The translations under genes and the position numbers were made by a program. The notes beneath the pieces were generated by a model. The model was not told where the DNA came from and did not search any database. It was given only the letters and a program-made list of their open reading frames with translations. Shown here one piece after another: positions 6,091 to 57,102 of a DNA stretch of 64,000 nt (position 1 is the stretch's first letter; each line of letters starts with the position of its first letter). Source of the DNA: Rhynchopus sp. YZ270_cl-10 (taxonomy: Eukaryota; Euglenozoa; Diplonemea; Diplonemida; Diplonemidae); the NCBI GenBank assembly GCA_964035575.1, contig OZ037923.1, positions 62,001 to 126,000 on the forward strand, given 5' to 3'.

Positions 6091-8063
6091 ATGATGCACG
6101 TCCCTCACATGCACACACATTTGTACTTGGTTGCTCTGCTGCGTACAACAGTGCTACACTTGTCCTTACCGTGTACGGTCTGCAGTGCTGTGCATCCGCT
6201 GAGGAACCCGCTACCAACCGTGGTGACTGCTTGCAGGCCTGATAGGTCCACTGTCGACAATGCTGTGCAGTTGTTGAGGAACCACTTACCCATCGTGGTG
6301 ACTGATTGTAAGCCTGAGAGGTCCACTGTCGACAATGCTATATTAAACTTAAAAAACGTGATCCACCCCCGCAAAAAGAAAAACCAGCAAAAGGGAAGGA
6401 TGGCACCACGGTGTGCCAGAGAGTGGCTTGATCCCATTTGCTGAATTATACCCAACAAAGAAGCGACACCTAAGTGAACAGGGGCCGTATACCACCGCTG
6501 GTGGCCTTGGTTAGTATATAAGCCAGGTCAAGGTCCGCACTCTGGCAGCGTCAAAAGAAATAAACAACAATAAAACCACCAGTCATTCCAATGGGAGGAA
6601 CGAATGACTGGCATCTCCTAATTCTCTAAACTGCGGTGAGTGGAACACCCAACTGATGCAAACCACTGCCGCAGGTTAGCACCTACAAAAAGCAAAGAAA
6701 AGCAAAGAAAAGCAAAGAAAAGAAAAGCAAAAGCTGTGCATGGTCGTAAAGTAGGTGCAGGGTCGCTTAAATCCCTGAGGGCACAAAAAGACCAGCATAC
6801 ACCTCCTCCAGTTGCTTTGGACCCTCCAGTATCATGTGCCCGGGTTTGCAAAAGTGCAATGCAACCATCCCACGCGTGGCCTTCGTTCACTCAAAAAAGA
6901 GATTATATCCGGGGACGCCAGGGCAAAAATGCCGGGGGGCTGCCACCTCACGTTTTTGTCCCCTCCACTGTCGACAATGCTGTGCAGTGGGAGAGAAAGC
7001 CCCTACCAATGGTGGTGACTGCTTGCAGACCTGAGAGGTCCACTGTCGACAATGCTGTGCAGTTGTTGAGGCACCAGTCACCAATCGTGGTGACTGCTTG
7101 AAGGCCTGATAGGTTTACTGTCGACAATGTCTCGCAGGCGCCGAGGAAGTAGTCACCAATCGTGGTGACTGCCTGTAAGCCTGAAAGGTCCACTGTCGAC
7201 AATGCTGTGCAGTGGGAGAGACAGCCCCTACCAATCGTGGTGACTGCTTGCAGACCTGAGAGGTCCACTGTCGACAACCTTGTGCAGTTCCTGAGGAAGT
7301 CGTCACCAATCGTGGTGACTGCTTGAAGGCCTGATAGGTCCACTGTCGACAATGCTGTGCAGCTACTCAGAAACCTTTGACCAATGGTGGTGACTGAGTG
7401 TAAGCCTCATAGGTCCACTGTCGACAATGCTCTGCAGTTGTGGAGAAACCCTTCACCAATCGTGGTGACTCCTTGAAGGCCTGATAGGTTTACTGTCGAC
7501 AATGCCTTGCAGGAGCCGAGGAAGTAGTCACCAATCGTGGTGACTGCTTGTAACCCTGAGAGTTCCACTGTCGACAATGCTGTGCGGTTGCTGTAGAGGA
7601 ACCTGTTCCCAATTGCGACAACACAGGGTAATGCAGGCAGGTGCAGTGTGGTGCCACGGTTGTCATCCGCATCGGACACGTAACTGAACACAATGTGTGT
7701 TACTAATGCACCACGTGAGAAGAAGTCATCTGGAATAGCAGTCGCAACCTCTGCCTGCAGGAGCAAGCTGGCCACCTGAGGATCCCGCACCTGCCCCAAC
7801 CTTTCTGCAGTGATGCCAGTCTCACCCAATGCATGAAGAGCTGATATGGCTTCGTACTTCAGTGACTTCGTCAGTGTGATTGTCTCGCCAGCACTCAGTT
7901 CTCTGATGTCCTCTCCTTCGTCCTTCCCTCCGAAACCCATACGAAAGCTGTCTTCGCACAACCCTTCTGCAGACGCCACCTTCTGCCGCATGGTCGCCGT
8001 TGTGTCATCCTCACCCACCTCAATCACGTACTCCTTGCCGAAGCCCTGCACAACCAGCTGCAT
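6091..8063 (-). pseudogene. LRR-A: ubiquitin-like/LRR gene, broken copy
   Basis: Copy A of a four-copy tandem family. The ATG at 8063 (MQLVVQGFGKEY) starts a ubiquitin-like domain of about 70 residues and the conserved helical linker, followed by 25-residue LRRs. The copy is dead in two ways. An in-frame TGA replaces the usual TCA serine codon of the third LRR (7403-7405), and a 624-bp element sits inside the repeat region (6340-6963). After the insertion the last two LRRs and the family C-terminus (ALQTVHGKDKC... to KYKCVCM) resume in the correct phase, so the insertion post-dates a full-length gene of about ten LRRs. An open frame upstream of 8063 is shared between copies but is shifted by one base in copy B, so it is treated as leader. 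The only alternative I see is that the stop is tolerated or the pieces are separately expressed, for which there is no evidence. Confidence 0.8.
6322..6981 (-). mobile_element. SINE-like insertion I in LRR-A, 18-bp target duplication
   Basis: Insert 6340-6963 (624 bp), flanked by TCCACTGTCGACAATGCT at 6322-6339 and 6964-6981. The plus-strand left end is AT-rich (ATATTAAACTT...), consistent with the 3' tail of an element lying on the minus strand. It shares blocks with insertion II: GCCCCCC/ATTTTTGC/ATCT-T6 near its 5' end, and a CTGCGG...CTGCCGC block at 6632-6676. No long open frame. A long duplication plus AT-rich tail suggests target-primed retroposition. Because every LRR unit contains the duplicated motif, unequal exchange could blur the exact duplication length. 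Confidence 0.65.
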
Positions 8064-8865
8064 TTTTAATGTGTCTCCCTTTTCATGGTGTTGTGTTGTT
8101 GTGTTGTGGTCAAAAACAAGGCTCCTCGACCATTCGGACTCGTATAGACCCGGTTGGAGACACGGAGTCTGGATGTGGCTAGGGTAGGTGGTCAACTTCT
8201 CGATCCCCATGCTCAAACATACAAAAAAAGACGTGGGGTTAAGCGGGGGGTTTGACCAATAAAACATTCTTGCAACATGTGTGCTGAAAAAGACAAAAAT
8301 TATTACACATCCACTTGCCGTTTGGATAAAGAAAACAGAGGCGAAAAGGGGTTTGGAGGGAAGAGTTTAATTCTTGAACGCATCCCCACACTCAGTCACA
8401 CGAAAGCCAAAAAAAGGGTGAAAGTCAAATGTTTTCACAAGGTTATAGTCAGTTCTATACAATGTGTACACAGTGTATGGAAATTGAAAAGATCTCACCG
8501 TTTCGTAGACAATCCCAAATTATTTTATAGCAGTCAGATCTATACAATTTATGCACAATCCCAGTATACACTAGGTTGTACATGCTTTACCCAGGTGCCA
8601 CACACACACCCACACCCCTACAGGATTACACCGTTCATTTCCCAACCCAACAACAACAATAAAAAGTGAAGACAATAAATAAAATCAAAGCGGAATAAAT
8701 TTGAGGTTTTGTGAGGCACTCAACGAGTGTGCCGGGTTTCGCATGGAGAAAAAAGCATTGCCAGTTTCTTTTTTTCGGAGAAGCAAAGTGCAAAGTGCAA
8801 TGTGTAACTTAAAATTCCTTCTGTGAACGGCGCAGTGAGCAGCTAGCCAGAAAGATGCACGTCAC
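8064..8865. other. LRR cluster spacer A/B (shared 5' and 3' flanks)
   Basis: No gene. The first part is the conserved leader of the LRR copies, including a short upstream frame (MKRETH then stop) ending 3-4 nt before the ATG. The rest recurs at 10540-10960 and 14370-14790, so it belongs to the duplicated unit. Trinucleotide CAA-type runs lie near 8090-8115. Confidence 0.55.
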
Positions 8866-10182
8866 TCACATGCACACACATTTATACTTGGTTGCTCTGC
8901 TGCGTACAACAGTGCTACACTTGTCCTTACCATGTACGGTCTGCAGTGCTGTGCATCCGCTGAGGAACCCGCTACCAACCGTGGTGACTGCTTGCAGGCC
9001 TGATAGGTCCACTGTCGACAATGCTGTGCAGTTGCTGAGGAACCAGTCACCAATCGTGGTGACTGCTTGAAGGCCTGATAGGTTTACTGTCGACAATGCC
9101 TTGCAGTCGCCGAGGAAGTAGTCACCAATCGTGGTGACTGATTGTAAGCCTGAGAGGTCCACTGTCGACAATGCTGTGCAACCGTTGAGGAACCCTTGGC
9201 CAATCGTGGTGACTGCTTGCAGGCCTGATAGGTCCACTTTCGACAACCTTGTGCAACCGTTGAGGAACCCTTGACCAATCGTGGTGACTGCTCGCAGACC
9301 TGAGAGGTCCACTTTCGACAATGCTGTGCAGTTGTTGAGAAACCAGTCACCAATTGTGGTGACTGATTGCAGGCTGGAGAGGTCCACTGTTGACAAGGCT
9401 ACGCACTTGTTGAGGAACCCTTCACCAACCGTGGTGACTGCTCGCAGGCCGGTGAGGTCCACTGTCGACAATGCTGTGCACTTGTTGAGGAACCAGTCAC
9501 CAATTGTGGTGACTGCTCGCAGGCTGGGGAGGTCCACTGTCGACAATGTTGAGCAATTGTTGAGAAACCCATCACCAATCGTGGTGACTGCTCGCAGGCC
9601 TGATAGGTCCACTTTCGATAATGCTGTGCAGTTGTTGAGGAACCAGTCGCCAATTGTGGTGACTGATTGTAACCCTGAGAGTTCCACTGTCGACAATGCT
9701 GTGCGGTTGTTGGAGAAGAAACTGCGCCCAATTGCGACAACACAGGGTAATGCAGGCAGGTGCAGTGTGGTGCCACGGTTGTCATCCGCATCGGACACGT
9801 AACTGAACACAATGTGTGTTACTAATGCACCATGTGAGAAGAAGTCATCTGGAATAGCAGTCGCAACCTCTGCCTGCAGGAGCAAGCTGGCCACCTGAGG
9901 ATCCCGCACCTGCCCCAACCTTTCTGCAGTGATGTCAGTCTCACCCAATGCATGAAGAGCTGATATGGCTTCGTACTTCAGTGACTTCGTCAGTGTGATT
10001 GTCTCGCCAGCACTCAGTTCTCTGATGTCCTCTCCTTCGTCCTTCCCTCCGAAACCCATACGAAAGCTGTCTTCGCACAACCCTTCTGCAGACGCCACCT
10101 TCTGCCGCATGGTCGCCGTTGTGTCATCCTCACCCACCTCAATCACGTACTCCTTGCCGAAGCCCTGCACAACCAGCTGCAT
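8866..10182 (-). CDS. LRR-B: ubiquitin-like domain + ten 25-residue LRRs (intact)
   Basis: 438 residues. Residues 1-68 (MQLVVQGFGK ... ITLTKS) align by eye with ubiquitin in strand order and spacing, including the QLVV start, the IEVGEDD turn and the ELSAGETITL end. Residues 69-113 form a helical linker ending AIPDDFF, also found in LRR-E. A degenerate cap follows to 161, then ten exact 25-residue repeats (162-411) of pattern LSTVDLSGLQAVTTIGxxFL-xxCTA, then a fixed 27-residue tail ending KYKCVCM. The repeat resembles BspA/TpLRR units but has 25 residues and one conserved Cys. Nearly all variation falls on positions 17-18 and 21-22 of the unit. No signal peptide or membrane segment is visible, so an intracellular location is inferred. 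The start is the ATG giving a complete ubiquitin-like fold; the upstream open frame is shifted in this copy. Function unknown. Confidence 0.85.
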   Translation of the reverse strand: MQLVVQGFGKEYVIEVGEDDTTATMRQKVASAEGLCEDSFRMGFGGKDEGEDIRELSAGETITLTKSLKYEAISALHALGETDITAERLGQVRDPQVASLLLQAEVATAIPDDFFSHGALVTHIVFSYVSDADDNRGTTLHLPALPCVVAIGRSFFSNNRTALSTVELSGLQSVTTIGDWFLNNCTALSKVDLSGLRAVTTIGDGFLNNCSTLSTVDLPSLRAVTTIGDWFLNKCTALSTVDLTGLRAVTTVGEGFLNKCVALSTVDLSSLQSVTTIGDWFLNNCTALSKVDLSGLRAVTTIGQGFLNGCTRLSKVDLSGLQAVTTIGQGFLNGCTALSTVDLSGLQSVTTIGDYFLGDCKALSTVNLSGLQAVTTIGDWFLSNCTALSTVDLSGLQAVTTVGSGFLSGCTALQTVHGKDKCSTVVRSRATKYKCVCM

Positions 10183-11080: not shown

Positions 11081-12459
11081 GATGCACGTCCCTCACATTT
11101 ATTTTAATCAGCTATCTGATGCGATAGTCTCCTTCCTTTATTTGATAGGGGACGGGGCAAGCAAGATAAAGCAAAGGGGTGGGGGGTGGGAAAAAGAAAG
11201 TGAAGTTATTAATGCAGGCACCTCCGACTGACCCACGTACGATGCCAGCCATCCGGATGAAAGCACAAGTACCCTGCGGCCAACAACAGAAGATGTAAAA
11301 AGGAAACCTAATGACTGGCCCGTACCGTAAGAGAACGAGGGCGGTTCACAACCGCTCGACAGCCGGCGGCCCACCTTCCGTTGAAGAGTTGTGAGCTTAC
11401 AGTACCGCAGTTCGCTGCACCCAACGCTTGATGCACGATAGTCTACACAAGAGAGCAGAAACCCAAAAACACAAAAAGGGGTGGGCGGGGGGGTCACAAC
11501 ATCTCTCTCTTGGCGCCCCATGCTGTACCGACAGTTGGGCCTCACCCTTTCTCTTTGGGATGTACATCGACGTCCTTACAGGCTGCACACCGTAACCCAA
11601 AAGCGTGGCAGAGAGACTCCGCAGAGCGACTCTGGCCTGACCGCTGGCCAAATATGCTCCGGGTGCGAGCACCCATCATAGCATAGGGGGGCCAGCCTGA
11701 CCCAGCATTTATATACCCTGCCAGGGTGAACTTGCATAAAAGAGGGGCGTTTAGCCCCCACAGAAAGACAAAGGCTATGTATGCACTGGTGAAAAGGGAG
11801 AGGCAGGGTTGCTGAAAAACAAAAAAGACCCTGAAAACACAAAAAACGCCCCGCATACCCCTCCTCGCCTCCTGTTTTGTAATCTCTCAGGTAGGAGACA
11901 TCGGTTCGAGCGGTCAACACCTTCATAGAGTTTCTGGAGGAACGGACCCCCGGATGCAGTCTAAGGTCCATCCCAGGACCAAACAAAAGTTGGGATATTT
12001 ACAGAAGGACACCACTAAGGGGTGCACGAAAGGGGAGATGCCCTTGAGTACGCACTAGGGAGGAGGAGGGTAAAATTGCACATTTTTACTGCCAAAATAT
12101 GTCACGGGTGGGTTGTAAGCTTGCGCCGCAGGCGCACGGTACGCTACCTTTATTATTTGGCCATGCTGAGTGCTTCCTTTTCCTTCGGCGTTTGCCAATT
12201 CTGAGGCTCGGGCATTATTTTCGGTCTCCTTTTCGTGAAGCAGCATTTTGGTTGGGGGAAGAAGTGGTCCCGAAACCCCAAAAACCCCAGACCACATTTT
12301 TTTCTTTTCCCCCCCTCCAAAAATTTCAAAAACTGGTCCAGTTTTACTATACGTATAATATAATACCCTGGAAAAAACCCGAAAACCCGAAAACCGGGCT
12401 TTGAAAACCCATAAACCCGCCCTAACGTAACACCTGTTCTTGATGCACGTCCCTCACAT
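11081..12459. mobile_element. Insertion III: 1.34-kb insert with 18-bp target duplication
   Basis: GATGCACGTCCCTCACAT stands at 11081-11098 and again at 12442-12459, bracketing 1,343 bp that are absent from the same spot in LRR copies A, B and D. The left end (plus) is AT-rich (TTATTTTAATC...). No convincing coding frame. Inside are a copy of the dispersed GCAGGCACCTCC block (11213-11268) and the GC-rich hairpin repeat at 12115-12158. It looks like a retroposed or composite non-coding element. I could not match its body to insertions I and II. Confidence 0.65.
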
Positions 12460-14167
12460 GCACACACATTTGTACTTGGTTGCTCTGCTGCGTACAACGG
12501 AGCTACACTTGTCCTTACCGTGTACGGTCTGCAGTGCTGTACATCTTCTGAGGAACCACCTATCAACCGTGGTGACTGCTTGCAGGCCTGATAGGTCCAC
12601 TGTCAACAACCTTGTGCAGCCGTCGAGGAAACACTCACCAATTGTGGTGACTGATTGTAAGCCTGAGAGGTCCACTGTCGACAATGCTGTGCAGTAGGAG
12701 AGAAAACAGTTACCAATCGTGGTGACTGCTTGCAGGCCTGAGAGGTCCACTGTCGACAATGCTCTGCAGTCGGAGAGAAACCAGTCACCAATTGTGGTGA
12801 CTGATTGCAAGCCTGAGAGGTCCACTGTCGACAAGCTTCTGCACTCGGCGAGAAAGGCCCTACCAATGGTGGTGACTGCTTGCAGACCTGAGAGGTCCAC
12901 TGTCGACAATGCTGTGCAGTTTACGAGAAACCCATCACCAATCGTGGTGACTGCTTGCAGACCTGAGAGGTCCACGTTCGACAATGCTGTGCAGTTGAAG
13001 AGGAACAAGTTACCAATGGTGGTGACTGATTGTAAGCCTGAGAGTTCCACTGTCAACAGTGCTGCGTAGTTGTAGGACAAGAAACTGCGCCCAATTGCAA
13101 CAACACAGGGTAATGCAGGCAGGTGCAGTGTGGTGCCACGGTTGTCATCCGCATCGGACACGTAACTGAACACAATGTGCGTTACTAATGCACCATGTGA
13201 GAAGAAGTCATCTGGAATAGCAGTCGCAACCTCTGCCTGCAGGAGCAAGCTGGCCACCTGAGGATCCCGCACCTGCCCCAACCTTTCTGCAGATAAACGT
13301 TTTTAAAAATAGGATGGAACACCCCGTTCCGAAGAGGAATGCAGCCACCCCGAAAAAGTGGGGGTGTGTCGCCAGTCTGCGGTGAGAAACTCCTCCCTGA
13401 GTCAAAACTGCCGCTGGTTAGCGCTGGCTAAGGTTCCCTTTTCACCCGGTCACAATCGAGTCTCGCTCCGTCGGCGTTGACTGCACTGCAAAGCCCCTTG
13501 GTCCACCGTCGTAAAAAGACACCACAAAAAGCGTAGGTAGGTGGGGGACCGGCAGGTTACAGACAGAGGCAGTACGGAGCTAAGGTGTCGGCGGTCGCGG
13601 GTTGCCGTGGAGGCCTGCCCCCCGTGGAGGTCTTGGGATCTGGGAGTTGTGGAAGTGATCGGCTCAGAGTACCCTGCATTCCATGCACGACTCGAGCTCC
13701 TTGTGGTAGGATATTGGGGTCCCGGGAAGCACCCTTCGCCCCGAGGTCCCACCACCCCAGACAGTTTGTAGGTCTAAAAGCACAACGTACTTGTCCAGGA
13801 CCTGGCCGCTCTTGGGTTCTCTCGAAAAAAAGATACTAATCCCGTACGCCCGTGCACCGCAAAAATGTGCTATGGGGGGCGGTCCGCCGTCGGGCTGCCC
13901 CAACCTTTCTGCAGTGATGTCAGTCTCACCCAATGCATGAAGAGCTGATATGGCTTCGTACTTCAGTGACTTCGTCAGTGTGATTGTCTCGCCAGCACTC
14001 AGTTCTCTGATGTCCTCTCCTTCGTCCTTCCCTCCAAAACCCATACGAAAGCTGTCTTCGCACAACCCTTCTGCAGACGCCACCTTCTGCCGCATGGTCG
14101 CCGTTGTGTCATCCTCACCCACCTCAATCACGTACTCCTTGCTGAAGCCCTGCACAACCAGCTGCAT
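12454..14167 (-). pseudogene. LRR-C: ubiquitin-like/LRR gene split by insertion II
   Basis: The start (ATG at 14167) and ubiquitin-like domain match copies B and D. The frame is interrupted within the linker, after the residues ...TAERLGQ, by a foreign block that ends the frame at 13664. On the other side of that block the linker and seven 25-residue LRRs plus the standard C-terminus continue intact to 12454. Apart from the insert the copy would match LRR-D in size (161 + 7 x 25 + 27). The LRR part is otherwise open, implying a recent insertion. The insert has no GTATG/CAG boundaries at its junctions, so I do not read it as an intron. Confidence 0.8.
13274..13894 (-). mobile_element. SINE-like insertion II in LRR-C, 20-bp target duplication
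   Basis: The direct repeat CTGCCCCAACCTTTCTGCAG flanks the insert at about 13274-13293 and 13895-13914. The insert of about 600 bp begins ATAAACGTTTTTAAAAATAGG-like on the plus strand (AT-rich end) and shares at least two blocks with insertion I: the 5'-terminal C6/ATTTTTGC/TTAGTATCT-T7 segment near 13826-13890 and the CTGCGGTGAG...ACTGCCGC block near 13378-13430. Same family, same orientation, no protein-coding frame. Best read as a non-autonomous retroposon moved by an unseen LINE. Confidence 0.75.
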
Positions 14168-15160: not shown

Positions 15161-15177
15161 AGAAAGATGCACGTCCC

Positions 15178-16269
15178 TCACATGCACACACATTTGTACT
15201 TGGTTGCTCTGCTGCGTACAACAGTGCTACACTTGTCCTTACCATGTACGGTCTGCAGTGCTGTACATTCGCTGAGGAACCACCTACCAATCGTGGTGAC
15301 TGCTTGCAGGCCTGATAGGTCCACTGTCGACAATGCTGTGCAGTCGGAGAGAAACCCGTAACCAATCGTGGTGACTGCTCGCAGACCTGAGAGGTCTACT
15401 GTCGACAATGCTGTGCAGTTGTAGAGGAAGTTGTCACCAATGGTGGTGACTGATTGTAAGCCTGAGAGGTCCACTGTCGACAATGCTGTGCAGTTGTTGA
15501 GGAAACAGTCATCAATGGTGGTGACTGCTTGCAGGCCTGATAGGTCCACTGTCGACAATGCTGTGCAGTCGGAGAGAAACCCGTAACCAATCGTGGTGAC
15601 TGCTTGCAGACCTGAGAGGTCTACTGTCGACAATGCTGTGCAGTTGTAGAGGAAGTTGTCACCAATGGTGGTGACTGATTGTAAGCCTGAGAGGTCCACT
15701 GTCGACAATGCTGTGCAGTTGTAGAGGAAGTTGTCACCAATGGTGGTGACTGATTGTAAGCCTGAGAGTTCCACTGTCGACAATCTTCTGCAGTTGTTGG
15801 AGAAGAAACTGCGCCCAATTGCAACAACACAGGGTAATGCAGGCAGGTGCAGTGTGGTGCCACGGTTGTCATCCGCATCGGACACGTAACTGAACACAAT
15901 GTGCGTTACTGATGCACCATCGGAGAAGAAGTCATCTGGAATAGCAGTCGCAACCTCTGCCTGCAGGAGCAAGCTGGCCACCTGAGGATCCCGCACCTGC
16001 CCCAACCTTTCTGCAGTGATGTCAGTCTCACCCAATGCATGAAGAGCTGATATGGCTTCGTACTTCAGTGACTTCGTCAGTGTGATTGTCTCGCCAGCAC
16101 TCAGTTCTCTGATGTCCTCTCCTTCGTCCTTCCCTCCAAAACCCATACGAAAGCTGTCTTCGCACAACCCTTCTGCAGACGCCACCTTCTGCCGCATGGT
16201 CGCCGTTGTGTCATCCTCACCCACCTCAATCACGTACTCCTTGCTGAAGCCCTGCACAACCAGCTGCAT
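15178..16269 (-). CDS. LRR-D: ubiquitin-like domain + seven 25-residue LRRs (intact)
   Basis: 363 residues: ubiquitin-like domain, linker and cap identical in layout to LRR-B (161 residues), seven LRRs (162-336) and the common 27-residue tail. Repeats 1, 2 and 5 carry the same variable set (DN/YN) and repeats 3 and 6 another (YG/SD), as if a block of units was recently duplicated or converted inside the gene. One repeat has DDC in place of GDx. Substitutions against LRR-B in the first 161 residues are few (for example GFS for GFG, SDGASV for SHGALV). The 5' leader carries a 136-bp insertion just upstream. Role unknown; an intracellular adaptor or recognition protein is inferred from the architecture. 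Confidence 0.85.
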   Translation of the reverse strand: MQLVVQGFSKEYVIEVGEDDTTATMRQKVASAEGLCEDSFRMGFGGKDEGEDIRELSAGETITLTKSLKYEAISALHALGETDITAERLGQVRDPQVASLLLQAEVATAIPDDFFSDGASVTHIVFSYVSDADDNRGTTLHLPALPCVVAIGRSFFSNNCRRLSTVELSGLQSVTTIGDNFLYNCTALSTVDLSGLQSVTTIGDNFLYNCTALSTVDLSGLQAVTTIGYGFLSDCTALSTVDLSGLQAVTTIDDCFLNNCTALSTVDLSGLQSVTTIGDNFLYNCTALSTVDLSGLRAVTTIGYGFLSDCTALSTVDLSGLQAVTTIGRWFLSECTALQTVHGKDKCSTVVRSRATKYKCVCM

Positions 16270-20187: not shown

Positions 20188-20436
20188 GATCAGCAACCTT
20201 AAAGACCTTAACACCGAGTGTTAAGGAATTGTTGTAACGCTCAGTGACTTGTCCAAACTTAGTTACTTGTTGTAACGCTTAGTGACTTGTCCACGTGGGG
20301 TGGCATGTCCACGCTTAGTTACTTGTTGTAAATACGGCCCGGCTTTGAGCGCACAAACAAAAGACCCGATATTTTTGCGTGTCACATTCCCTCAATTCAA
20401 GCGTGAGTCACTCACACTTGAAGTCATGTGCCACTG

Positions 20437-20602
20437 CGTGGGTACCTGTGTACCTGTGTACCTGTGTACCTGTGTACCTGTGTACCTGTGTACCTGTGTA
20501 CCTGTGTACCTGTGTACCTGTGTACCTGTGTACCTGTGTACCTGTGTACCTGTGTACCTGTGTACCTGTGTACCTGTGTACCTGTGTACCTGTGTACCTG
20601 TG
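20437..20602 (+). repeat. (GTACCTGTG)n 9-bp array, about 18 units
   Basis: Very homogeneous array that abuts the CAGTATACA array without a spacer. Confidence 0.95.
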
Positions 20603-21069
20603 TTCACAGTATACACAGTACACACAGTATACACAGTATACACAGTATACACAGTATACACAGTATACACAGTATACACAGTATACACAGTATACACAGT
20701 ATACACAGTATACACAGTATACACAGTATACACAGTATACACAGTATACACAGTATACACAGTATACACAGTATACACAGTATACACAGTATACACAGTA
20801 TACACAGTATACACAGTATACACAGTATACACAGTATACACAGTATACACAGTATACACAGTATACACAGTATACACAGTATACACAGTATACACAGTAT
20901 ACACAGTATACACAGTATACACAGTATACATGCTTTGTACTCTTATTTTGTTTTTTTTTTTGCAGGGTTTTCAAACCCCCCACCGTGCATTTTTACCCGT
21001 CATGACCAAGGGGGGGCCTGGTCATTTTGACCAGGCTAAAAGCCTGGTCAGTCACCTGACCAAGCCACC
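20603..21069 (-). repeat. Right arm of 3.7-kb inverted repeat, with (CAGTATACA)n
   Basis: About 36 units of the 9-mer CAGTATACA (reverse complement of TATACTGTG), then the mirror image of the left arm: ATGCTTTGTACTCTTATTTTG, the CACCGTGCATTTTTACCCGTC block, GGTCATGACC palindromes and the terminal TGACCAAGCCACC. Confidence 0.85.
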
Positions 21070-21873
21070 GTGCCCACGATTTTTTTCCCGGCTTTTGGGG
21101 GGGGTGAAAATAAAAATTTTTTTTGGAAAATAATAAAAAATCTTGATGGTGTTCTCTTACTCTCCCCCCGATACCTTTCTCGCGCCCCAAGAACCATCTA
21201 AGGGAGTTAGAGGGTGGGCGTGTTTTCCTAGAATTTGACGGACGGAGCTCGTAGAACCCAACGAGGAATGAGAAAAAAGGATAGGGCGAAATCATAAAAG
21301 TAGCGTACCGTGCGCCTGCGGCGCAAGCTTACTGTAAATTGTATGACATGGTACTGGGTACTTAACTCAAAAAAGTGGACGGCATCTAAAAATTTCCGCC
21401 TGCGGCGCGGCAGCCCTGACCCAGTTTCCCCCTTTTCTTGTTCAGTCGGCAGGATCACTTGGCCCTTACACTGATGTTGACCAAAAGCCAAGAACTTGTC
21501 CATTTCGTCAAATTGACCCCACCACAGCGCGGACGGATTCCAAAAATCCCCCACGAACCAGCTTCTCCAGGGGCTTCGCGCGCGAAGCGCGCGAAAAATT
21601 TTGCAACCCGAAAAACACCTCACCCCCCCTAAGGTCAAAAAAACCTGTCCCAAAAAAAACCTCTGCTGGCATCTCCAAAAAAAAAAAAAAGAAAAGTTTG
21701 TAAGATGACCCTAGTCACCTTATCATATTCGTTATCGCACAGCATGAGCGGCGCTGGCTTCCAAGTTTGTTTACAAAAAAAGGTGGATTGACATAGCAAC
21801 CATACCCCGCATATCCTCCACTCACGTGGTGTGCACGCTGCGCGTAGCACGCCGTGTGGTAGGAGGTCTTCCG
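21070..21873. other. Intergenic, dispersed repeats
   Basis: No gene seen. Contains a GC-rich hairpin repeat (21292-21333), an alternating GCGC palindrome near 21573-21590 and a shortened family I hairpin (21702-21721). Confidence 0.5.
21292..21333. repeat. GC-rich hairpin repeat, three copies
   Basis: Core GTACCGTGCGCCTGCGGCGCAA at 21292-21333, in reverse at 12115-12158, and again at 27360-27388. The first two share about 44 bp including ATAAARGTAGC. The TGCGCC-GCA-GGCGCA stem-loop recalls the end structure of a mobile element, unassigned. Confidence 0.65.
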
Positions 21874-22587
21874 CTATATTCTCAGCAGGGGGTGTGCACT
21901 CACGGAGCTGAAAGAAGGGATGATTTTATTTTCTTCTCCAAACGATTCAAGAATGCATACCAACGCTTCTACGCACCGCCACACATGGCAGTTCTCCGCT
22001 GTGTCGTAGCAATGCCACGAAGGGAACGAAGCTCCTTCCTTGTGCAGCTTGATCACCTCAAAGTGCTTCCCTCTGCACTCGACGTATGTCACGGTCACCA
22101 CCTTTGCACTGTCGTGGAGAAGGGAAAAGACGTCGGGCGCTGATGTGGGCGCACCGTATTGGTCGGTTAGCATCATTCCCGCCATGAACAGGGTGCGTGC
22201 GTCCATGTCGTCGTCCTCGGTGAGGATGCGTGTGTGCAGCACCTTGGCGGTTGGTATCGTGGTCATGCGCTTCTTAGCGACCTGTTCAGAGTCTGTCATG
22301 TTCACACCCTGAGCCTCGTGCTTCGGGCGTTTCAACGCTTTCCGTGTCATCAGTACTGTGCATCGTATGTGAAGTGCGTCCTTGACGTCTTCGTCGTTAA
22401 CCATGCGTGTTCCGATGGTCCCGTCGCCATCCTCGCGTCCAACAACGATGTTCCGTGTGCTGTCTGTGTCGCGCATGTGGAAGCGTTGTACCTTCTTTGC
22501 AGCCTGCATCAAACTGTCGATGGTTGGAGTATCGAAGGTGACGTCCGCTTGCTTGCCGTACCAGGATACGGTCAGGGTGTGTGGCAT
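21874..22587 (-). CDS. Hypothetical protein with ubiquitin-like N-terminus
   Basis: 237 residues from the ATG at 22587 (MPHTLTVSWYGKQADVTFDT). Other in-frame ATGs lie upstream (for example 22683); I chose the one giving a beta-hairpin followed by a helix (TIDSLMQAAKKVQRF), a layout like the N-termini of the LRR and WD families here and of Crinkler-type headers. Residues 1-80 would be this domain, followed by a basic stretch (RKALKRPKHE) and a C-terminal domain of about 120 residues with no family I recognise (landmarks TVTYVECRGKHFEVIKLHKEG and WHCYDTAENCHVW). No signal peptide or membrane segment. The coding call rests on length, GC-rich composition and strand agreement with all neighbours. 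The ubiquitin-like reading is by eye and weaker than for the LRR family. Confidence 0.65.
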   Translation of the reverse strand: MPHTLTVSWYGKQADVTFDTPTIDSLMQAAKKVQRFHMRDTDSTRNIVVGREDGDGTIGTRMVNDEDVKDALHIRCTVLMTRKALKRPKHEAQGVNMTDSEQVAKKRMTTIPTAKVLHTRILTEDDDMDARTLFMAGMMLTDQYGAPTSAPDVFSLLHDSAKVVTVTYVECRGKHFEVIKLHKEGASFPSWHCYDTAENCHVWRCVEALVCILESFGEENKIIPSFSSVSAHPLLRI

Positions 22588-24963: not shown

Positions 24964-24987
24964 CTTGTGGTTTGCTTTTCTTTTATT

Positions 24988-33883: not shown

Positions 33884-36070
<2,187 letters not shown>

Positions 36071-37944: not shown

Positions 37945-38738
37945 TGTTTTGCGTTACTTCCGCGACAAGGTGCAAATCAGCACGTTTCCTCCACCACAAA
38001 CGGAGGGAGTGATGAGGTGGGTGGGGGACAGGTGTTGTTCTGTGTTGCATGTTTGTGGTGTTCCTCGTTGTGAGAGGTGATGAAAATAAGACGACTCTGA
38101 GCATCGCGATCTGTCACCCACACAAGAGCGCCGCATGGGCAGCGTGTGAGGTGGGCGACCTGTGGCAGGCAAACAACAGAGAAGCAGCAACAGGGCTGAA
38201 AGGGGAGTTTCTTGGGGTGTTTGAGGGTCTTGGGTTTGTTTGTACACACTGTTGTTCCACATTTCAAAGCTCCAAAATACTGTAAGTAAAACTGGGTGTG
38301 CCTTACCCGAAAATGACTCTCTCTGTCACCCCTGCTCATTTAGACCATTTGGCCATTCTTGGGCCATCCAAAAACGATGAATTTGCGACACAAAAAAAAT
38401 ATTTTCATTGCTAAAAACTCATGGTCTTTCTGAAACATTTTTTAGTACCAATGCAAAAGATGTGAAGCTCTTTTTAACACCTATCGACCCTCGCCCCCAT
38501 ACCCTTCCCCTTCACAGAGCTCTCAAGGTAAGCACTCCACAGCATCTTGTGCTTCGTGTTCACGTGCTTCCGTACAGATGCCTGAGATGCAGACCTCACA
38601 CACACCTGCGTGCTCTCCGCCCCACACATGCTGGCGCATTTCAAAGATCTTCATCGCAAAAGGGTCGTGGAGGGGTGAAATGGAGGAAATGGGGCAGAAG
38701 AGTGATCACTAATCACAAACACCACCTCTCGCAAAACA
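37945..38738. other. WP spacer with C2H2 zinc-finger relic (about 38475-38690)
   Basis: First 250 bp: conserved leader of WP1. Then, on the minus strand at about 38475-38690, an untranslated relic whose frame reads SASQASVRKHVNTKHKMLW and ends KGKGMGARVDRC. It is nearly the same as the C-terminal zinc finger of WP8. It lies downstream of the WP2 stop, so WP2 descends from a WP8-like gene that lost its finger. Confidence 0.7.
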
Positions 38739-43743: not shown

Positions 43744-45138
43744 TGTTTTGCGTTACTTCCGTGACAAGGTGCAAATCAGCACGTTTCCTCCACCACAAAC
43801 GGAGGGAGTGATGAGGTGGGTGGGGGAGAGGTGTTGTTCTGTGTTGCATGTTTGTGGTGTTCCTCGTTGTGAGAGGTGATGAAAATAAGACGACTCTGAG
43901 CATCGCCATCTGTCACCCACACAAGAGCGCCGCATGGGCAGCGTGTGAGGTGGGCGACCTGTGGCAGGCAAACAAGAGAAAAGCAGCAACAGGGCTGAAA
44001 GGGGAGTTTCTTGGGGTGTTTTGAGGGTCTTGGGTTTGTTTGTACATGTTGTCACTGTTGTCTTGGGTTTTGTCTTCTCTCTTTTTTACAACACACTCAT
44101 ATGCGGTGGCGATGGGTGTAGGATAGTAGTAGCACTGTACGCAGCAAGAAAATACACAAAACATCACGAAAGAAGTGCGAAAAAGCACCCCACAAAGAAC
44201 CCTTGTGACCCTCCGCACTCTTGTGGTGGTTGCAGTAAAACAATACAACCCACCTCACGAGATGAATGGCACGTGGGCAAAAAGAAGTCTCAACGAACAA
44301 ACACAACACACATGCAACAGACACAGATACGATTCCGCATCGATGCGCTTTACCTTGAAGATTAAACAAATACTGGATGACATCGTGACGTACACATTCT
44401 GTTGATTCTAAAAACTGGGCTGGTCAGCTACCAGAGGGCAACTGTGTGAAAGCGCGATGTCGTGCAGGTGGACCTGGAGGTGCAAACACGTCTCAATTTA
44501 CTTCCACATTATAAAACAACACAGACAGACACGACTCCACATCGATGCGATTTACCTGAAAACACCGGCATTTGCATTTCTAGAAGCCGCCCATTCTGTG
44601 GTGGGAGATATACAGAAACATGGACAAAATGTTAGTAACTTAAATAGTTGATGAGATGAAACCAACCCCCCTTGAAGGGCAAACGTTGCAGGGTTAGATA
44701 TCTTGGAAAAGGAAGTTCCGCATACACTCCACAGCGCGCAATATGCAGCACCATTGAACTGTACAAAGGAACAATAGAAGGAGAAGTGGGTGAGTAACAA
44801 GGAAAGGACAAGACAAATATGTGGACGTACGCGGGGCAAAGTAAAGATAGGTAGAAAAAAGGGTTAAAGGGGGGTTAGTCGTGCGCCACTATAGTAGAGG
44901 GGATTTCAGATATCTTCTACTCCGTCTTATTGTTCGATATTTTACACCGTTTTTAGAAATTTTGTGCGAGTTAGGAAAAAATATGAGAGTACCACAGATA
45001 CTCAAAAGTTAAAAATTCTTGCTTTAATGGAATTTTTGGGCCTCAAACTCGGACATAGTAATTTTGTTCTCCAAATTTATGCTCCAAAATTTTCAGTTCA
45101 AAATCCAAAAATCCATAGGGTCCCCCCTATGGTTTTTA
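43744..45138. other. Spacer with 400-bp block duplicated at 54481
   Basis: Leader of WP4, then about 44075-44508: a block of over 400 bp almost identical to 54481-54903, including the 85-bp repeat. Nothing that looks like a gene follows up to the microsatellite. Confidence 0.6.
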
Positions 45139-46145
45139 CACAGTACACAGTACACAGTACACAGTACACAGTACACAGTACACAGTACACAGTACACAGT
45201 ACACAGTACACAGTACACAGTACACAGTACACAGTACACAGTACACAGTACACAGTACACAGTACACAGTACACAGTACACAGTACACAGTACACAGTAC
45301 ACAGTACACAGTACACAGTACACAGTACACAGTACACAGTACACAGTACACAGTACACAGTACACAGTACACAGTACACAGTACACAGTACACAGTACAC
45401 AGTACACAGTACACAGTACACAGTACACAGTACACAGTACACAGTACACAGTACACAGTACACAGTACACAGTACCCAGTACCCAGTACCCAGTACCCAG
45501 TACCCAGTACCCAGTACCCAGTACCCAGTACCCAGTACCCAGTACCCAGTACCCAGTACCCAGTACCCAGTACCCAGTACCCAGTACCCAGTACCCAGTA
45601 CCCAGTACCCAGTACCCAGTACCCAGTACCCAGTACCCAGTACCCAGTACCCAGTACCCAGTACCCAGTACCCAGTACCCAGTACCCAGTACCCAGTACC
45701 CAGTACCCAGTACCCAGTACCCAGTACCCAGTACCCAGTACCCAGTACCCAGTACCCAGTACCCAGTACAGTACAGTACAGTACAGTACAGTACAGTACA
45801 GTACAGTACAGTACAGTACAGTACAGTACAGTACAGTACAGTACAGTACAGTACAGTACAGTACAGTACAGTACAGTACAGTACAGTACAGTACAGTACA
45901 GTACAGTACAGTACAGTACAGTACAGTACAGTACAGTACAGTACAGTACAGTACAGTACAGTACAGTACAGTACAGTACAGTACAGTACAGTACAGTACA
46001 GTACAGTACAGTACAGTACAGTACAGTACAGTACAGTACAGTACAGTACAGTACAGTACAGTACAGTACAGTACAGTACAGTACAGTACAGTACAGTACA
46101 GTACAGTACAGTACAGTACAGTACAGTACAGTACAGTACAGTACA
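45139..46145 (+). repeat. Three-phase microsatellite: (CACAGTA)n, (CCCAGTA)n, (CAGTA)n
   Basis: About 47 units of CACAGTA (45139-45472), then about 42 of CCCAGTA (to about 45767), then about 75 of CAGTA (to 46144). The three blocks are internally uniform and abut directly, each derivable from its neighbour by one substitution (A to C) or a two-base loss. The long frames here are artefacts. Confidence 0.97.
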
Positions 46146-46221
46146 AATTAAAATAAATGTCTGAGTTCATTAAAGCAACGAGCAAAAAAGACCAATATCG
46201 AATTTTATTAAATGGCAAAAC

Positions 46222-47814: not shown

Positions 47815-48948
47815 TCAGTAGGGGTACAGATGTCTCGCCACAATAGTGTCTGGAGACGAGTTCGTGAACAGCACCACACGTGAACACGGCGATATCGCAA
47901 ACGAAGAGTAGACAGCTACGTCGGAGAACACACGCACACAGGACATGGTCGCCACATCATATTGGTGCAGTGAAAATTGCTCAGAATCTTCATCATCATA
48001 CACAAATTCAACCACGAGATACTTCTCGCACAGGGTGAACTGCATGGAACAGATATAAAAATGCCCCGCCTTTGCAAAGCTGCCCAGAGCCTCACCACTC
48101 CAATCATAGAGTCGCACTTCGTTGGGGTGAACGCCAGATACCGCAACAGCAAAGACAGAGGCAGAGAGTGACAGCGCCACTGCGCGTTCACCCGCCACAT
48201 CTACACATGCCACTGCTTCACCTGTGTTCACATCCCACAGACGTACGTTCGGATCCCCACGAGAAGAGGTGAGCACCCACCCACCACAGTGCGACACAGC
48301 CACCTTCCAGCACCGTGCGAGTGACAGAGAGCAGAGCAACGTCAGGTCTTCGTCATACACAGAGACGCCGTCTTCACACCACGACACAACAACACCGCCA
48401 CACGCAAGCACTCCGGGGTACGAGGTCCCGTCAACTTTGCGGAGCACCTCCCCTCCCGGAAGTGCAATCTCCTGTATGCCTTCGTCGTACGCCAGGTAGC
48501 AGCGTGTCTTGCACCGTGAGATGGCAGGCGCACCATACGACTCGATGTCTACTTTGAACTTGAAGGCAGGGCTGAAGGTTTCTGTATCGAGGCCCGTGAC
48601 ATAGCCTTCCTGTGTGAAGAGGCAGAGTGCTCCACAAGGAGACAGCGAGAAGCAATCTACCTTCATATCCCGCCTACCAGTTGGCACCTCTACACTGTGC
48701 TCAGCAGGACACTTGATGTCGGCACAGCGGGGTCGGGCAAGCACGACCTGCACCCCAGCAACAAACGCAGTGTCCTGCAGACGGCACGTCCCCTCCACCA
48801 CCTGCGTGCCGATGCGCATCTCGACAGACGCAGGCGGGACAGCAAGCGCCGTGCACGCAACCTTCTTTGCCGCTGCAGCGTTCGCCTCGCACGGCACCTC
48901 CACTGTCGCAGTCACGCCTGACTCTTCCAGCACAAAGGTCACATCCAT
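47815..48948 (-). CDS. WP5: ubiquitin-like/WD-propeller protein with distinct 5' flank
   Basis: 377 residues. Sub-group of WP2/WP6 in the middle (TSYPGVLACGGVVVSWCEDG) and pair of WP6 at the C-terminus, with an acidic insertion VEFVYDDEDSEQFSLHQYD in the penultimate blade and VAVSGVHPNEVRLYDWS before it. Unlike all other copies its upstream sequence diverges right at the ATG: ...GACCCTGAAGAACACAATG instead of the common GTAACGCAAAACA leader, so it has a different 5' untranslated region and perhaps a different acceptor. Confidence 0.85.
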   Translation of the reverse strand: MDVTFVLEESGVTATVEVPCEANAAAAKKVACTALAVPPASVEMRIGTQVVEGTCRLQDTAFVAGVQVVLARPRCADIKCPAEHSVEVPTGRRDMKVDCFSLSPCGALCLFTQEGYVTGLDTETFSPAFKFKVDIESYGAPAISRCKTRCYLAYDEGIQEIALPGGEVLRKVDGTSYPGVLACGGVVVSWCEDGVSVYDEDLTLLCSLSLARCWKVAVSHCGGWVLTSSRGDPNVRLWDVNTGEAVACVDVAGERAVALSLSASVFAVAVSGVHPNEVRLYDWSGEALGSFAKAGHFYICSMQFTLCEKYLVVEFVYDDEDSEQFSLHQYDVATMSCVRVFSDVAVYSSFAISPCSRVVLFTNSSPDTIVARHLYPY

Positions 48949-53487: not shown

Positions 53488-54399
53488 TCACTGCGACAGT
53501 CTCGATCGCTTGCGGTCTTCGTCAGGTGATTTGTCTCGCTTCCGTTTCGGACGGGCGTCCACCACAAATTTACTCAGGTTCCGGTTCTTCACAGCTCGTG
53601 ACACAACAGCGCTGCACCCAGAGAGGCGGATGGTTTGTAATTTTGTCATCTCGCAGAAGTCACGACCAACGTGCGTAACACTGTCGAGCGAAGACAGATC
53701 TAGTTCTGTTAGACTGCTGCATTCTTTCAGGAATTCGTCGTTGATCCACTCAAGACTGCTGAGTGAAGACAAGTCAAGAGACGTCAAACTGCTGCACCTG
53801 GAGAGGAAGCCTGTCCCAATGTGCGTGACATTGGTGAGCGAAGATAAGTCGAGAGCTGTCAAACTGCTGCACCTGGAGAGAAAGCGGTACCCAATGTGCG
53901 TGACACTGGTGAGCGAAGACAAGTCGAGAGCTGTCAAACTGTGTTGTTGGGAGAGGAAGTTGCTTTCAATCCTCGTGACAGTCGACACAGCACTCAGATC
54001 AAGTCTCGTGAACATTTGCGACATCCCTACCCACGGCACGCGTGACAAGAAGTCATCAGGAATTACAGTCGTAACCTCCGCCTGCAGAAGCAAACACGCC
54101 ACCTCCGGATCCTTCACGGTCTTCAGCCTTTTCGCAGTGATGTCTGTCTCACCCAACGCATGAAGAGCTGCTCTGGCCTCGAACTTCATCGACTTCGTCA
54201 ACACAATCTTGTCCCCAGCACTCAGCTGCGTCATGTCGGCTCCTTCGCCCATCGCTTCGCATCCGAAATTCATCACAAAGCCGTCTTCAGGCAGCTCCAC
54301 TGCAGACGCCACCTTCCGCCGCATGTCCGTAGGTGTGTCATCCTCACCCAGCTCGACCACATGCTGCACTCCGTTCCACCCTTCGATAGTCAAATCCAT
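53488..54399 (-). CDS. LRR-E: diverged ubiquitin-like/LRR protein with basic C-terminus
   Basis: 303 residues. MDLTIEGWNGVQHVVELGED starts a ubiquitin-like domain (1-69) clearly homologous to that of LRR-A to D (VGEDD / LGEDD, LSAG.. / LTKS). The helical linker ALHALGETDITAKRLKTVKD...LLLQAEV is kept. About five LRRs (LTALDLSSLTSVTHIGYRFLSRCSS) follow, with 24-25 residue spacing. The tail RPKRKRDKSPDEDRKRSR is strongly basic and looks like a nuclear localisation signal, which the A-D copies lack. It is a single-copy relative sitting 37 kb away, inside the WP array, so both ubiquitin-like families are physically mixed. The start was chosen to give the complete domain. Role unknown. Confidence 0.85.
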   Translation of the reverse strand: MDLTIEGWNGVQHVVELGEDDTPTDMRRKVASAVELPEDGFVMNFGCEAMGEGADMTQLSAGDKIVLTKSMKFEARAALHALGETDITAKRLKTVKDPEVACLLLQAEVTTVIPDDFLSRVPWVGMSQMFTRLDLSAVSTVTRIESNFLSQQHSLTALDLSSLTSVTHIGYRFLSRCSSLTALDLSSLTNVTHIGTGFLSRCSSLTSLDLSSLSSLEWINDEFLKECSSLTELDLSSLDSVTHVGRDFCEMTKLQTIRLSGCSAVVSRAVKNRNLSKFVVDARPKRKRDKSPDEDRKRSRLSQ

Positions 54400-55689: not shown

Positions 55690-57102
55690 TCAACACCTAT
55701 CGACCCTCGCCCCCACACCCTTCCCCTTCACAGAGCTCTCAAGGTAAGCACTCCACAGCATCTTGTGCTTCGTGTTCGCGTGCTTCCGTACAGACGCCTG
55801 AGATGCAAACCTCACACCCCCCTGCGTGCTCTCCGCCCCACACACGCTGCAGCGGAGATCCTCGTCTACCTCCTCCCACCCACGCTTCTGCCCCCTCCCC
55901 TCACCACTCACATCCACACCTTCCCCTTGTGGCGCTGCCCCTGCCCCACCACCACCCAACATCACCACACTCATCAGCGTCAGTGTATTGGTAGTGGCAT
56001 CAATTTTGAACAGCCACCCCCCACAGCACGTCACTGCCAGCTGCTTACAGCCCCCTTCACCCGCATCAGTCCTGTCCACGGAAAGCTGTTCCCCGCTCCC
56101 CAAATCGAAGAAGAGGAGTTTGTCGTAACTGCACGATGCAATGAATCCACCTGCTGTTGAGAGGGCAACGCTATTTACATTGCTCGTGTGCCCTTGGAGG
56201 ATGCGTGTGCACTGCTTTGTCAGCAAATCCCAAACACGGCAAGTTTTATCCTCACTCCCAGTCACCGCCACCCCACCACAATCACTCACCGTCACATCTG
56301 TGACGACGTCTTCGTGGCCCTGTAGGCTGTGCTCTTCATCTGACGTGAGTCCCCACATCCGGATAGTCTTGTGACGGGCGGCTGCCAAAATGAATTTATC
56401 CGTCACTGCTACTTTATTTATATGATTGAACATGACGACAGTGACGTCTGTACAGGTCTTCTCCAAGGTCCCGGTCGAGAGGTTCCAGACGTGGATGATC
56501 GTGGTATTGCCAGCAGACACAACCCTCCCACAGCGTGTGAAACACACTGAATAAAGAGAGGGTGGGCGGGCGACGTCGTGAAGGGTATGTGTGCAGGCCC
56601 CACTGCTGTCGTACACTCGCACCTTACCGTCGTCCCAGGCAGACGCCAGCGACGCCTCAGTGCCGCATTTTGAATAACTCACCCCTCTGCACCACCTACC
56701 CCCACCCATCGTCAACGCAAACAGCTCCTCCCCCTCCACTGTGTCCCACACAGACAATTGGTCATCCCCGCCCCGAGCAAGCCTCGTCCCGCAGTCCGAC
56801 ACTGCAACAGACATGTATCGCCCTAAGTAACGAAACGGAGCCTTCAACGTCGCCCGCACACGGACGAGCTCCACATGTGCACCTCCCCCCAGTGTCGTGC
56901 TGCTGAGAGGCACTCCGTCCCCGCCAAGGTCCACACCGCTCCCCTTCATCTGCAGAGACAGGGCACGCACCGCATCGCTGCTGTCCCCTTCCCTGCCCCC
57001 GGGGAGCTCCTCAAGGATTCTGCGTTTCAAACTCCCGATGGTTTCGTCTTCTGATGCTGCGATCACACAGGTTTGGTCGAGGAAGCTGCACGACACATCC
57101 AT
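55690..57102 (-). CDS. WP8: ubiquitin-like + WD40 propeller + C2H2 zinc finger
   Basis: 470 residues from the ATG at 57102 (MDVSCSFLDQTCVIAASEDE). Residues 1-85 are a ubiquitin-like domain with a larger helix-strand insertion (LPGGREGDSSDAVRAL). About 90-395 are canonical WD40 blades: LQGHEDVVTDVTVSDCGGVAVTGS, EDKTCRVWDL and LQGHTSNVNSVALS, with GH and WD dipeptides that the WP1-7 copies have lost. A Gly-rich linker leads to a C2H2 finger (Cys418, Cys421, His441, His446; CSVCGAEST...KHANTKH) and a short tail KGKGVGARVDRC. Relics of this finger behind WP2 and WP3 show that WP8 keeps the ancestral domain set. Possible role: adaptor contacting nucleic acid or protein through the finger; inferred only. 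Confidence 0.88.
   Translation of the reverse strand: MDVSCSFLDQTCVIAASEDETIGSLKRRILEELPGGREGDSSDAVRALSLQMKGSGVDLGGDGVPLSSTTLGGGAHVELVRVRATLKAPFRYLGRYMSVAVSDCGTRLARGGDDQLSVWDTVEGEELFALTMGGGRWCRGVSYSKCGTEASLASAWDDGKVRVYDSSGACTHTLHDVARPPSLYSVCFTRCGRVVSAGNTTIIHVWNLSTGTLEKTCTDVTVVMFNHINKVAVTDKFILAAARHKTIRMWGLTSDEEHSLQGHEDVVTDVTVSDCGGVAVTGSEDKTCRVWDLLTKQCTRILQGHTSNVNSVALSTAGGFIASCSYDKLLFFDLGSGEQLSVDRTDAGEGGCKQLAVTCCGGWLFKIDATTNTLTLMSVVMLGGGGAGAAPQGEGVDVSGEGRGQKRGWEEVDEDLRCSVCGAESTQGGVRFASQASVRKHANTKHKMLWSAYLESSVKGKGVGARVDRC

Follow-up and report, generated by a model that had tools for sequence, protein, structure and literature searches.

A 64-kb window of contig C91 (OZ037923.1) in the genome of the diplonemid Rhynchopus sp. 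YZ270_cl-10 (152.4 Mb in 126 contigs) carries members of two gene families, LRR-A to LRR-E and WP1 to WP8, in which an N-terminal header, identified by profile searches and structural models as a beta-grasp ubiquitin-like (UBL) domain in both families, is followed either by leucine-rich repeats (LRRs) or by a WD propeller. Among WP genes of the WP1-7 type the header hardly changes, whereas the propeller is variable, chiefly on one of its faces; the members of both families extend far beyond those in the window. We tentatively favour reading them as two related sets of intracellular proteins for recognition, each protein combining a UBL docking module with a diversified sensor. The five LRR and eight WP genes are all on the minus strand, at the places given by a first-pass annotation of the window, with LRR-E between WP7 and WP8; each starts at the higher of the two coordinates given here (lengths in amino acids, aa).

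7407-8063, minus strand: LRR-A, pseudogene-like, with UBL header (7857-8063) and, before an in-frame stop, a linker and the first LRRs
8866-10182, minus strand: LRR-B, 438 aa, with UBL header (9976-10182), linker and 25-residue LRRs
12454-14167, minus strand: LRR-C, with UBL header (13961-14167); frame interrupted by an inserted repeat
15178-16269, minus strand: LRR-D, 363 aa, with UBL header (16063-16269) and LRRs
36829-37944, minus strand: WP1, 371 aa, with UBL header (37729-37944) and WD propeller
38739-39857, minus strand: WP2, 372 aa
40542-41690, minus strand: WP3, 382 aa
42631-43743, minus strand: WP4, 370 aa; modelled
47815-48948, minus strand: WP5, 377 aa
49644-50789, minus strand: WP6, 381 aa
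51730-52845, minus strand: WP7, 371 aa
53488-54399, minus strand: LRR-E, 303 aa, with UBL header (54193-54399), helical linker, LRRs and basic tail; modelled
55690-57102, minus strand: WP8, 470 aa, with divergent UBL header (56848-57102), canonical WD40 repeats and Cys/His-rich tail

Three profiles were used to examine the header. Profile A3 holds 21 headers, that of WP8 and those of WP8-like genes from other contigs, with WP1-7 excluded; from 27 loci sampled around WP8 matches, L014 and L061 (one gene) and L055 were omitted, their longest open reading frame (ORF) being without the header, and 20 of the 24 remaining loci were used (L013, L049, L050 and L052 were not). Profile A4 holds 13 LRR headers, namely those of LRR-B and LRR-E and 11 of the 14 non-redundant header strings obtained from 117 of the 120 listed LRR-E relatives, and profile A5 was made from the genome's own ubiquitins. 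In a search of PDB sequences the best 60 of 372 rows for A3 and the best 60 of 345 for A4 were all ubiquitin, ubiquitin-derived or ubiquitin-like proteins, counting one A3 row labelled 2'-5' oligoadenylate synthase, which we take to contain a UBL domain. The best single-ubiquitin chain for A3 was aligned over residues 1-77 with an E-value of 1.2e-5; that for A4 was a core-redesigned ubiquitin (E 3e-6, with wild type at about 8e-5), and the A4 matches span mostly header positions 1-56, leaving the last strand outside. Aligned with one another by hhalign, A3 and A4 matched over 68 columns at a program probability of 96.6%.

Hidden Markov model (HMM) scores of single headers were judged against 200 shuffles of each sequence. 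With A3 the headers of WP1, WP3 and WP6 score 21.9-23.8 bits (best shuffle 10.0-11.6), that of LRR-B 16.6 bits (best shuffle 5.0), that of LRR-E 17.3 bits (best shuffle 6.3) and ubiquitin from this genome 22.1 bits, none of the 200 shuffles reaching as high for any of these sequences; A4 gives the WP headers just 6.1-8.4 bits, again equalled by none of 200 shuffles. The UBL assignment is qualified by A5, with which LRR-B is clear at 15.4 bits, LRR-E barely detected at 2.6, and the headers of WP1, WP3, WP6 and WP8 not distinguished from their shuffles (6-30 of 200 scored as well); the link between WP header and ubiquitin is visible only through the header profiles. The LRR-E linker and a piece of the WP1 propeller stayed at shuffle level with all three profiles. 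A Pfam scan covered eight of the LRR and WP proteins and families at E up to 1 (for WP8 the best 25 of 35 families), a scope that holds for the Pfam results throughout. Within it PF00240 was matched weakly in LRR-A, LRR-B, LRR-D and the LRR-C fragment (E 0.0014-0.0053, under the cut-off) and not in LRR-E, and no UBL family was matched in WP1, WP4 or WP8; precomputed assignments place PF00240 in 18 of the 120 listed LRR-E relatives and in none of the 120 listed WP4 relatives.

AlphaFold models of WP4 (predicted local distance difference test, pLDDT, 90.1; 65 sequences in the alignment) and LRR-E (pLDDT 90.9; 59 sequences) were made from alignments whose sequences were chosen by hand, and the predicted headers of both have their strands and helix in the order of ubiquitin. 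In WP4 the elements are strands 2-7 and 13-17, helix 24-34, strand 42-46, a short bridge at 49-50 and strand 67-72, followed by 28 strands that we read as seven blades; in LRR-E they are strands 2-6 and 12-16, helix 23-34 and strands 41-45, 48-50 and 64-69. With Foldseek the LRR-E header superposes on ubiquitin at TM-scores mostly of 0.77-0.85 by ubiquitin length, with a root-mean-square deviation (rmsd) of 1.5-2.1 and E about 1e-3. This superposition is for LRR-E only, since whole-model searches with WP4 were filled by the propeller; a VIA-align search with WP4 likewise gave propellers only (residues 78-370) among its best 50 rows, none of these being an NLE1 chain, and is uninformative on the header. 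A common UBL header in the LRR and WP families, as the first-pass annotation had proposed from the letters of the window, is thus supported by the profile searches, by both models and by the fold search with LRR-E. A di-glycine was not found at the end of the UBL domain, LRR headers ending in LTK and WP1-7 headers in VVLAR, and GG occurs somewhere in residues 61-90 of seven WP relatives. A header-based search with WP8 residues 1-95 returned WP8 alone and no new domain pairing, being an exact-word search that would miss most relatives.

The distribution of variability in the WP family was examined in WP4 and 114 of its 120 listed relatives (the closest of 416), six being dropped because their start is not MDVTF. 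Loops joining successive propeller strands in the WP4 model were given two labels in alternation, with borders fixed after the entropies had been printed, and were assigned to the AB/CD or the DA/BC side by eye from the WD signature (for example SHCGG in the turn that follows strand a, or VNTG in the one that follows strand c). Entropy averages 0.16 bits over the header and, on this assignment, 2.39 bits in the DA/BC loops and 0.34 bits in the AB/CD loops, and the strand halves follow suit, with 1.65 bits on the DA/BC side and 0.52 on the AB/CD side. The two classes of loop do not overlap, the lowest of 14 DA/BC loops (1.46 bits) lying above the highest of 13 AB/CD loops (0.69 bits). Mean pairwise identity over 2000 random pairs is 95% for headers and 64% for propellers.

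The size of the families was gauged from searches of the genome and of a protein collection, and first-look candidates in the former are not gene counts. LRR-E gave 3175 such candidates, of which 130 were scored, yielding 199 matches concentrated on contigs C96, C4, C21 and C29. The WP header gave 553, of which the 150 scored fall on C6 (128), C91 (9), C5 (8), C11 (2) and C7, C58 and C68 (one each). On C6 the WP array runs from 197 kb to 1.96 Mb, i.e. over 1.76 Mb of the contig, with WP genes on the minus strand left of 653 kb and on the plus strand right of 729 kb; the change of strand between 653 and 729 kb is a divergent one, of the kind known from euglenozoan genomes with polycistronic gene arrays. 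Open frames of at least 300 aa contain 142 of the 150 scored WP headers, and shorter frames the other eight. In the protein collection, at E up to 0.001, LRR-E has 1944 relatives, which may include unrelated LRR proteins, and WP4 has 416; the closest 120 of each were listed. When these 240 were compared with the window and selected loci, seven could be placed (five in the window, and P0131 and P0141 on C6) and 233 were unplaced; relative P0016 has a 100% match in this genome, and eight listed identifiers in all were traced to it. Contigs in the protein collection have other lengths than those of the genome searched (for C6, 2712987 against 2052989), which indicates that the collection contains a different assembly version or a close relative.

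Variability in the LRR family has a different layout. Among 518 repeats found by pattern in the 120 LRR-E relatives, variability within the 25-residue unit peaks at positions 14, 17, 18, 21, 22 and 24 (3.0-3.8 bits), and the strand-side positions left free by the pattern (2, 3, 5, 7 and 8) have 0.7-2.4 bits. Recognition by these proteins, if any, would rather be via the side or convex surface, unlike that of most LRR receptors. The repeats resemble BspA-type LRRs (PF13306), LRR_5 being matched in LRR-B, LRR-D, LRR-E and listed relatives; the family differs from BspA-type proteins in its UBL header and in a basic tail, with at least seven Lys or Arg in the last 25 residues, which is found in 87 of 120 LRR relatives and in 0 of 120 WP relatives. 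This tail, similar to a nuclear-localization signal, suggests that the LRR family may be nuclear.

The genes of the window had been described as close paralogues, which holds for most of them: LRR-A and LRR-D are 90-91% identical to LRR-B, and WP2-7 are 79-93% identical to WP1. LRR-E (47-50% to LRR-A, B and D) and WP8 (24% to WP1) are not close. Headers are more alike still, those of LRR-A, C and D having 0-2 base differences from that of LRR-B over 69 codons (LRR-C has two) and those of WP2, 4, 5 and 7 being 97-100% identical to that of WP1. Frames are open in LRR-B, LRR-D, LRR-E and all WP genes. LRR-A has an in-frame stop after 218 codons, with the LRR frame continuing downstream, and the frame of LRR-C is interrupted by an inserted element of some 602 bp, on either side of which 20 bp of LRR-C's own coding sequence are duplicated:

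13273-13914, minus strand: repeated element of about 602 bp in LRR-C, with the 20-bp duplications at both ends

From 175 first-look candidates for this element, 40 of them scored, 44 matches were listed, and at least eight copies, that in LRR-C included, had the full score and were identical over the 591 bases queried; this identity points to recent movement. A copy of the Cys/His-rich C-terminal tail of WP8 (residues 416-470) lies at 38477-38644 on the minus strand, between WP1 and WP2, with 87% identity and without the rest of the gene, and the WP8-like protein of locus L045 ends in a similar tail.

Comparison of the WP genes of C91 with three from C6 indicates how the header may have been kept uniform. 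At four-fold degenerate sites, C91 and C6 genes differ in 36 of 960 pair-cells in the header and in 459 of 2320 (about 20%) in the propeller; along the gene, silent divergence is 0.000 in codons 1-30, 0.023 in codons 31-60, 0.10-0.25 in the rest and 0.056 in the last ten. Among the C6 genes themselves the corresponding counts are 0 of 147 in the header and 52 of 368 in the propeller. Because header silent sites in codons 1-60 are nearly identical between C91 and C6 when the propellers are some 20% apart, the simplest reading is that the WP header is copied between genes as a homogenized cassette; constraint on the silent sites of the header is an alternative that would also account for the pattern. 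Maximum-likelihood (ML) estimates of omega, the ratio of non-synonymous to synonymous change, for the seven window WP genes are 0.10 for the header (twice the log-likelihood difference from omega 1, 2dlnL, 19.4), 0.86 for AB/CD loops and 1.06 for strands; with the three C6 genes added they become 0.28 for the header, 1.31 for DA/BC loops, 0.72 for AB/CD loops and 0.85 for strands. Pair counting gives a DA/BC omega of 2.05 in WP1, WP4 and WP7. Early pair counting had suggested strong selection in some windows, a conclusion tempered by maximum likelihood per structural class.

The closest parallel to the variable face of the WP propellers is in the fungal HNWD proteins HET-D and HET-E (NACHT-WD40), in which the propeller is variable at the DA loop and BC turn of its top face. 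Excerpts from the account of these Podospora genes report positively selected codons in the d-a loop and b-c turn on the top of the propeller, and repeats that evolve in concert with DNA exchange among members of the gene family (PMC1805685). WP proteins differ in having a UBL header, and neither NACHT nor NB-ARC was found in the Pfam scan; they differ also in that their diversity lies between many whole paralogues, that of HET-D and HET-E being in near-identical, shuffled repeats. Elsewhere in the genome the NACHT model has seven matches over the cut-off (on C64, C25, C18, C75, C81, C95 and C67), but the same model has matches in 11 of the 14 control genomes too, and in three of these they exceed the cut-off. 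The loci L032 (1767-7097, plus strand), L033, L035, L036, L038 and L041 hold ORFs that resemble ankyrin-WD40 proteins, are some 1650-1780 aa long and begin with MGSG, except that in L032 the MGSG is internal; that of L032 matches ankyrin, ADP-ribosyltransferase (ART) and WD40 models, and that of L035 ankyrin, NACHT, pentapeptide and WD40 models. The other ORFs of this group (C5, C3, C76 and C9) are alike by eye. These matches place the LRR and WP families in a genome with genes resembling those of nucleotide-binding, leucine-rich-repeat receptors (NLRs).

The layout of a UBL domain followed by a propeller is itself known. The statement in the first-pass annotation that no described family has these pairings was too strong, since an N-terminal UBL domain with a C-terminal WD propeller is the architecture of Rsa4/NLE1 and of Ytm1/WDR12, even though sequence comparison does not join the WP genes to NLE. 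The UBL-LRR combination also has a relative of sorts in the tubulin cofactors TBCE/TBCEL, in which LRRs and a UBL domain occur in one protein with the UBL domain C-terminal. In excerpts of PMC6624252, Ytm1 is stated to have a UBL domain, and Rsa4 and Ytm1 to dock the metal-ion-dependent adhesion site (MIDAS) of Rea1 via a UBL glutamate (Rsa4 E114, Ytm1 E80). No description of a family such as UBL-LRR or UBL-WP was found in a literature search of titles and the beginnings of abstracts, and the main text of the Diplonema papillatum genome paper contains none of the terms ubiquitin, leucine-rich, LRR or WD40.

That the two families form recognition repertoires is the reading that we think fits best, if still somewhat short of an even chance, because the WP header is near-constant, one face of the propeller is hypervariable, the WP array occupies 1.76 Mb and NACHT/WD40 genes are present elsewhere; the first-pass annotation, the interpretation of which is supported in part, had listed such a repertoire among possible roles. 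In the mechanism that we propose, the N-terminal UBL domain, lacking a conjugation end, would dock a cellular partner, probably one common to the family, and the C-terminal sensor would be diversified between paralogues. The WP1-7-type sensor would be a seven-bladed WD propeller with the DA and BC loops of one face as the putative variable binding surface for ligands, which may be non-self or variable; the sensor of the LRR family would be a BspA-type LRR with its most variable positions outside the concave strand, acting perhaps in the nucleus. The repertoire would have been made by tandem duplication, copying of the header at the DNA level and diversification of the sensor face.

Several observations weigh against this reading or restrict it. 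The analysis covers one genome. Constancy of the WP header is limited to the WP1-7 type, WP8-like headers being 26-41% identical to that of WP8, and LRR headers, 44-79% identical to that of LRR-E in the non-redundant set, are not constant; the variable LRR positions, moreover, lie elsewhere than on the concave face with which LRRs usually bind. Conservation of AB and CD turns is common to WD40 proteins at large, and the contrast between DA/BC and AB/CD loops is therefore partly structural; it was drawn for the WP family alone, uncalibrated by a neutral WD40 family, with loop borders set when the entropies were known. The ML omega of DA/BC loops in the seven window genes, 1.48, is not significantly above 1 (2dlnL 2.5), and by counting it is 0.67 in C6 x C6 pairs of the three C6 genes. 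For the header, pair counting between C91 and C6 gives an omega of about 1.1, a value owed to the very low silent divergence of that part, and within C91 silent divergence is alike in header (0.048) and propeller (0.063).

Among the other readings, a role as ubiquitin-pathway adaptors, with the UBL domain docking the proteasome or an E3 complex and the LRR or WD part bringing substrates for turnover, was put forward in the first-pass annotation and is in our view unlikely, though we retain it as a rival. LRR and WD40 domains are common substrate receptors, and to have a UBL domain at the N-terminus and a binding domain at the C-terminus is reminiscent of shuttle factors like Rad23; UBL chains of RAD23B are among the PDB matches. 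The surface of the header argues otherwise, the profile consensus at the position of Ile44 being Ser (LRR) or Arg (WP8-like), and the WP8-like consensus having Ser at Leu8 and Glu at His68; the terminal di-glycine is lacking, the Pfam scan has no UBA, F-box or RING, and the DDB1-type WDxR motif is rare (1 of 120 WP and 2 of 25 WP8-like proteins). Also unlikely is an inflation of the families with no recognition role, through unequal crossing-over, near-neutral drift of the sensor and gene conversion of the header. In its favour, omega in the propeller is close to 1 (1.06 for strands, with no significant excess over 1 for DA/BC loops), broken members exist, among them LRR-A, LRR-C and a 193-aa WP frame in L065, and 8 of the 150 scored WP headers are in frames below 300 aa; set against this are the 142 of 150 in frames of at least 300 aa, the purifying selection on the header among window genes, and the concentration of variability on one face.

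The remaining two readings appeal to known proteins of similar layout. It is rather improbable that the WP proteins are offshoots of the Rsa4/NLE1-Ytm1 family of ribosome-assembly factors, with the UBL domain docking a MIDAS such as that of Rea1 and the propeller holding the particle. Domain order is identical, and NLE1/Rsa4 chains are at ranks 4, 10 and 17 of the WP4 Foldseek search (480-490 columns, rmsd 11-12); this origin, suggested by Foldseek, is unsupported by sequence. The NLE domain (PF08154) was not found in WP1, WP4 or WP8 in the Pfam scan, and the three genomic matches of the NLE model fall at two places, C28 and C71, none of them a WP gene. The genome keeps its own clear NLE1, on C28, the header of which is at shuffle level with A3 and A4, an insensitive test given that it is so with A5 as well; the C71 match adjoins a WD40-like ORF that we took by eye for Ytm1. 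Hundreds of copies with a variable face would be ill-suited to an assembly factor. The MIDAS-binding glutamate argues neither way, its correspondence to ubiquitin E64, where the WP8-like profile has Gly, being an assumed mapping. Least probable, and to be doubted strongly, is that these are effector-like proteins whose UBL header serves in delivery, a role put forward for the header of Crinkler (CRN) proteins. The comparison with Crinklers, made in the first-pass annotation, holds for layout, a UBL header on swappable C-terminal parts, the latter being described in excerpts of PMC5289972 as NTPase-, helix-turn-helix (HTH)- or nuclease-type domains. It does not extend to the domains themselves: no Crinkler model appeared in the Pfam scan, the C-termini are of the recognition type (LRR or WD) and not of an enzyme type, and nothing in this analysis points to a parasitic organism.

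One further protein of the window had been thought to have the same kind of start:

21874-22587, minus strand: 237-aa single-copy protein, outside both families

A UBL header in this protein is rejected on sequence, its score with A3 being 0.7 bits with 53 of 200 shuffles as good, and at shuffle level with A4 and A5 too; its only match in the genome is itself. The window also contains long tandem repeats of short unit at 20280-21130, 28804-30498 and 44964-46218, open in several frames on both strands. Elsewhere in the genome, L022-L025 (C31, 985 kb to 1.48 Mb) are a long array of divergent ubiquitin-like ORFs, polyubiquitin loci are very many (1421 first-look candidates, 150 scored), and ORFs that by eye are papain-like cysteine proteases adjoin ubiquitin matches at L027, L030 and L031 on C49, C85 and C78. 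Another tandem WD40 family is found at L034 (C47), with proteins of 880-905 aa that, by eye, have an N-terminal WD40 part, Thr/Pro-rich repeats and hydrophobic segments. The genome has two copies of a 19-nt sequence that we take for the end of a spliced leader of diplonemid type, and none of its reversed control; both copies (L009 and L010, near 1500) run without a break into mRNA-like sequence with a start codon, and these loci are probably processed retrocopies of trans-spliced mRNAs.

In its fullest form, the recognition reading would give this diplonemid a system of immunity or allorecognition that acts inside the cell and has not been described before, with hundreds to thousands of sensors in which a UBL header replaces the signalling part of an NLR. 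Propellers of one-faced variability on a homogenized header cassette would then take up most of a contig of two megabases. We regard this as a possibility worth entertaining, and as more doubtful than a recognition role as such. The one-faced variability points out candidate residues in the propeller. If the proteins are receptors, a UBL domain with a variable propeller would be a layout for recognition without an NTPase switch, and the sensing by these flagellates of viruses, symbionts or each other would become testable.

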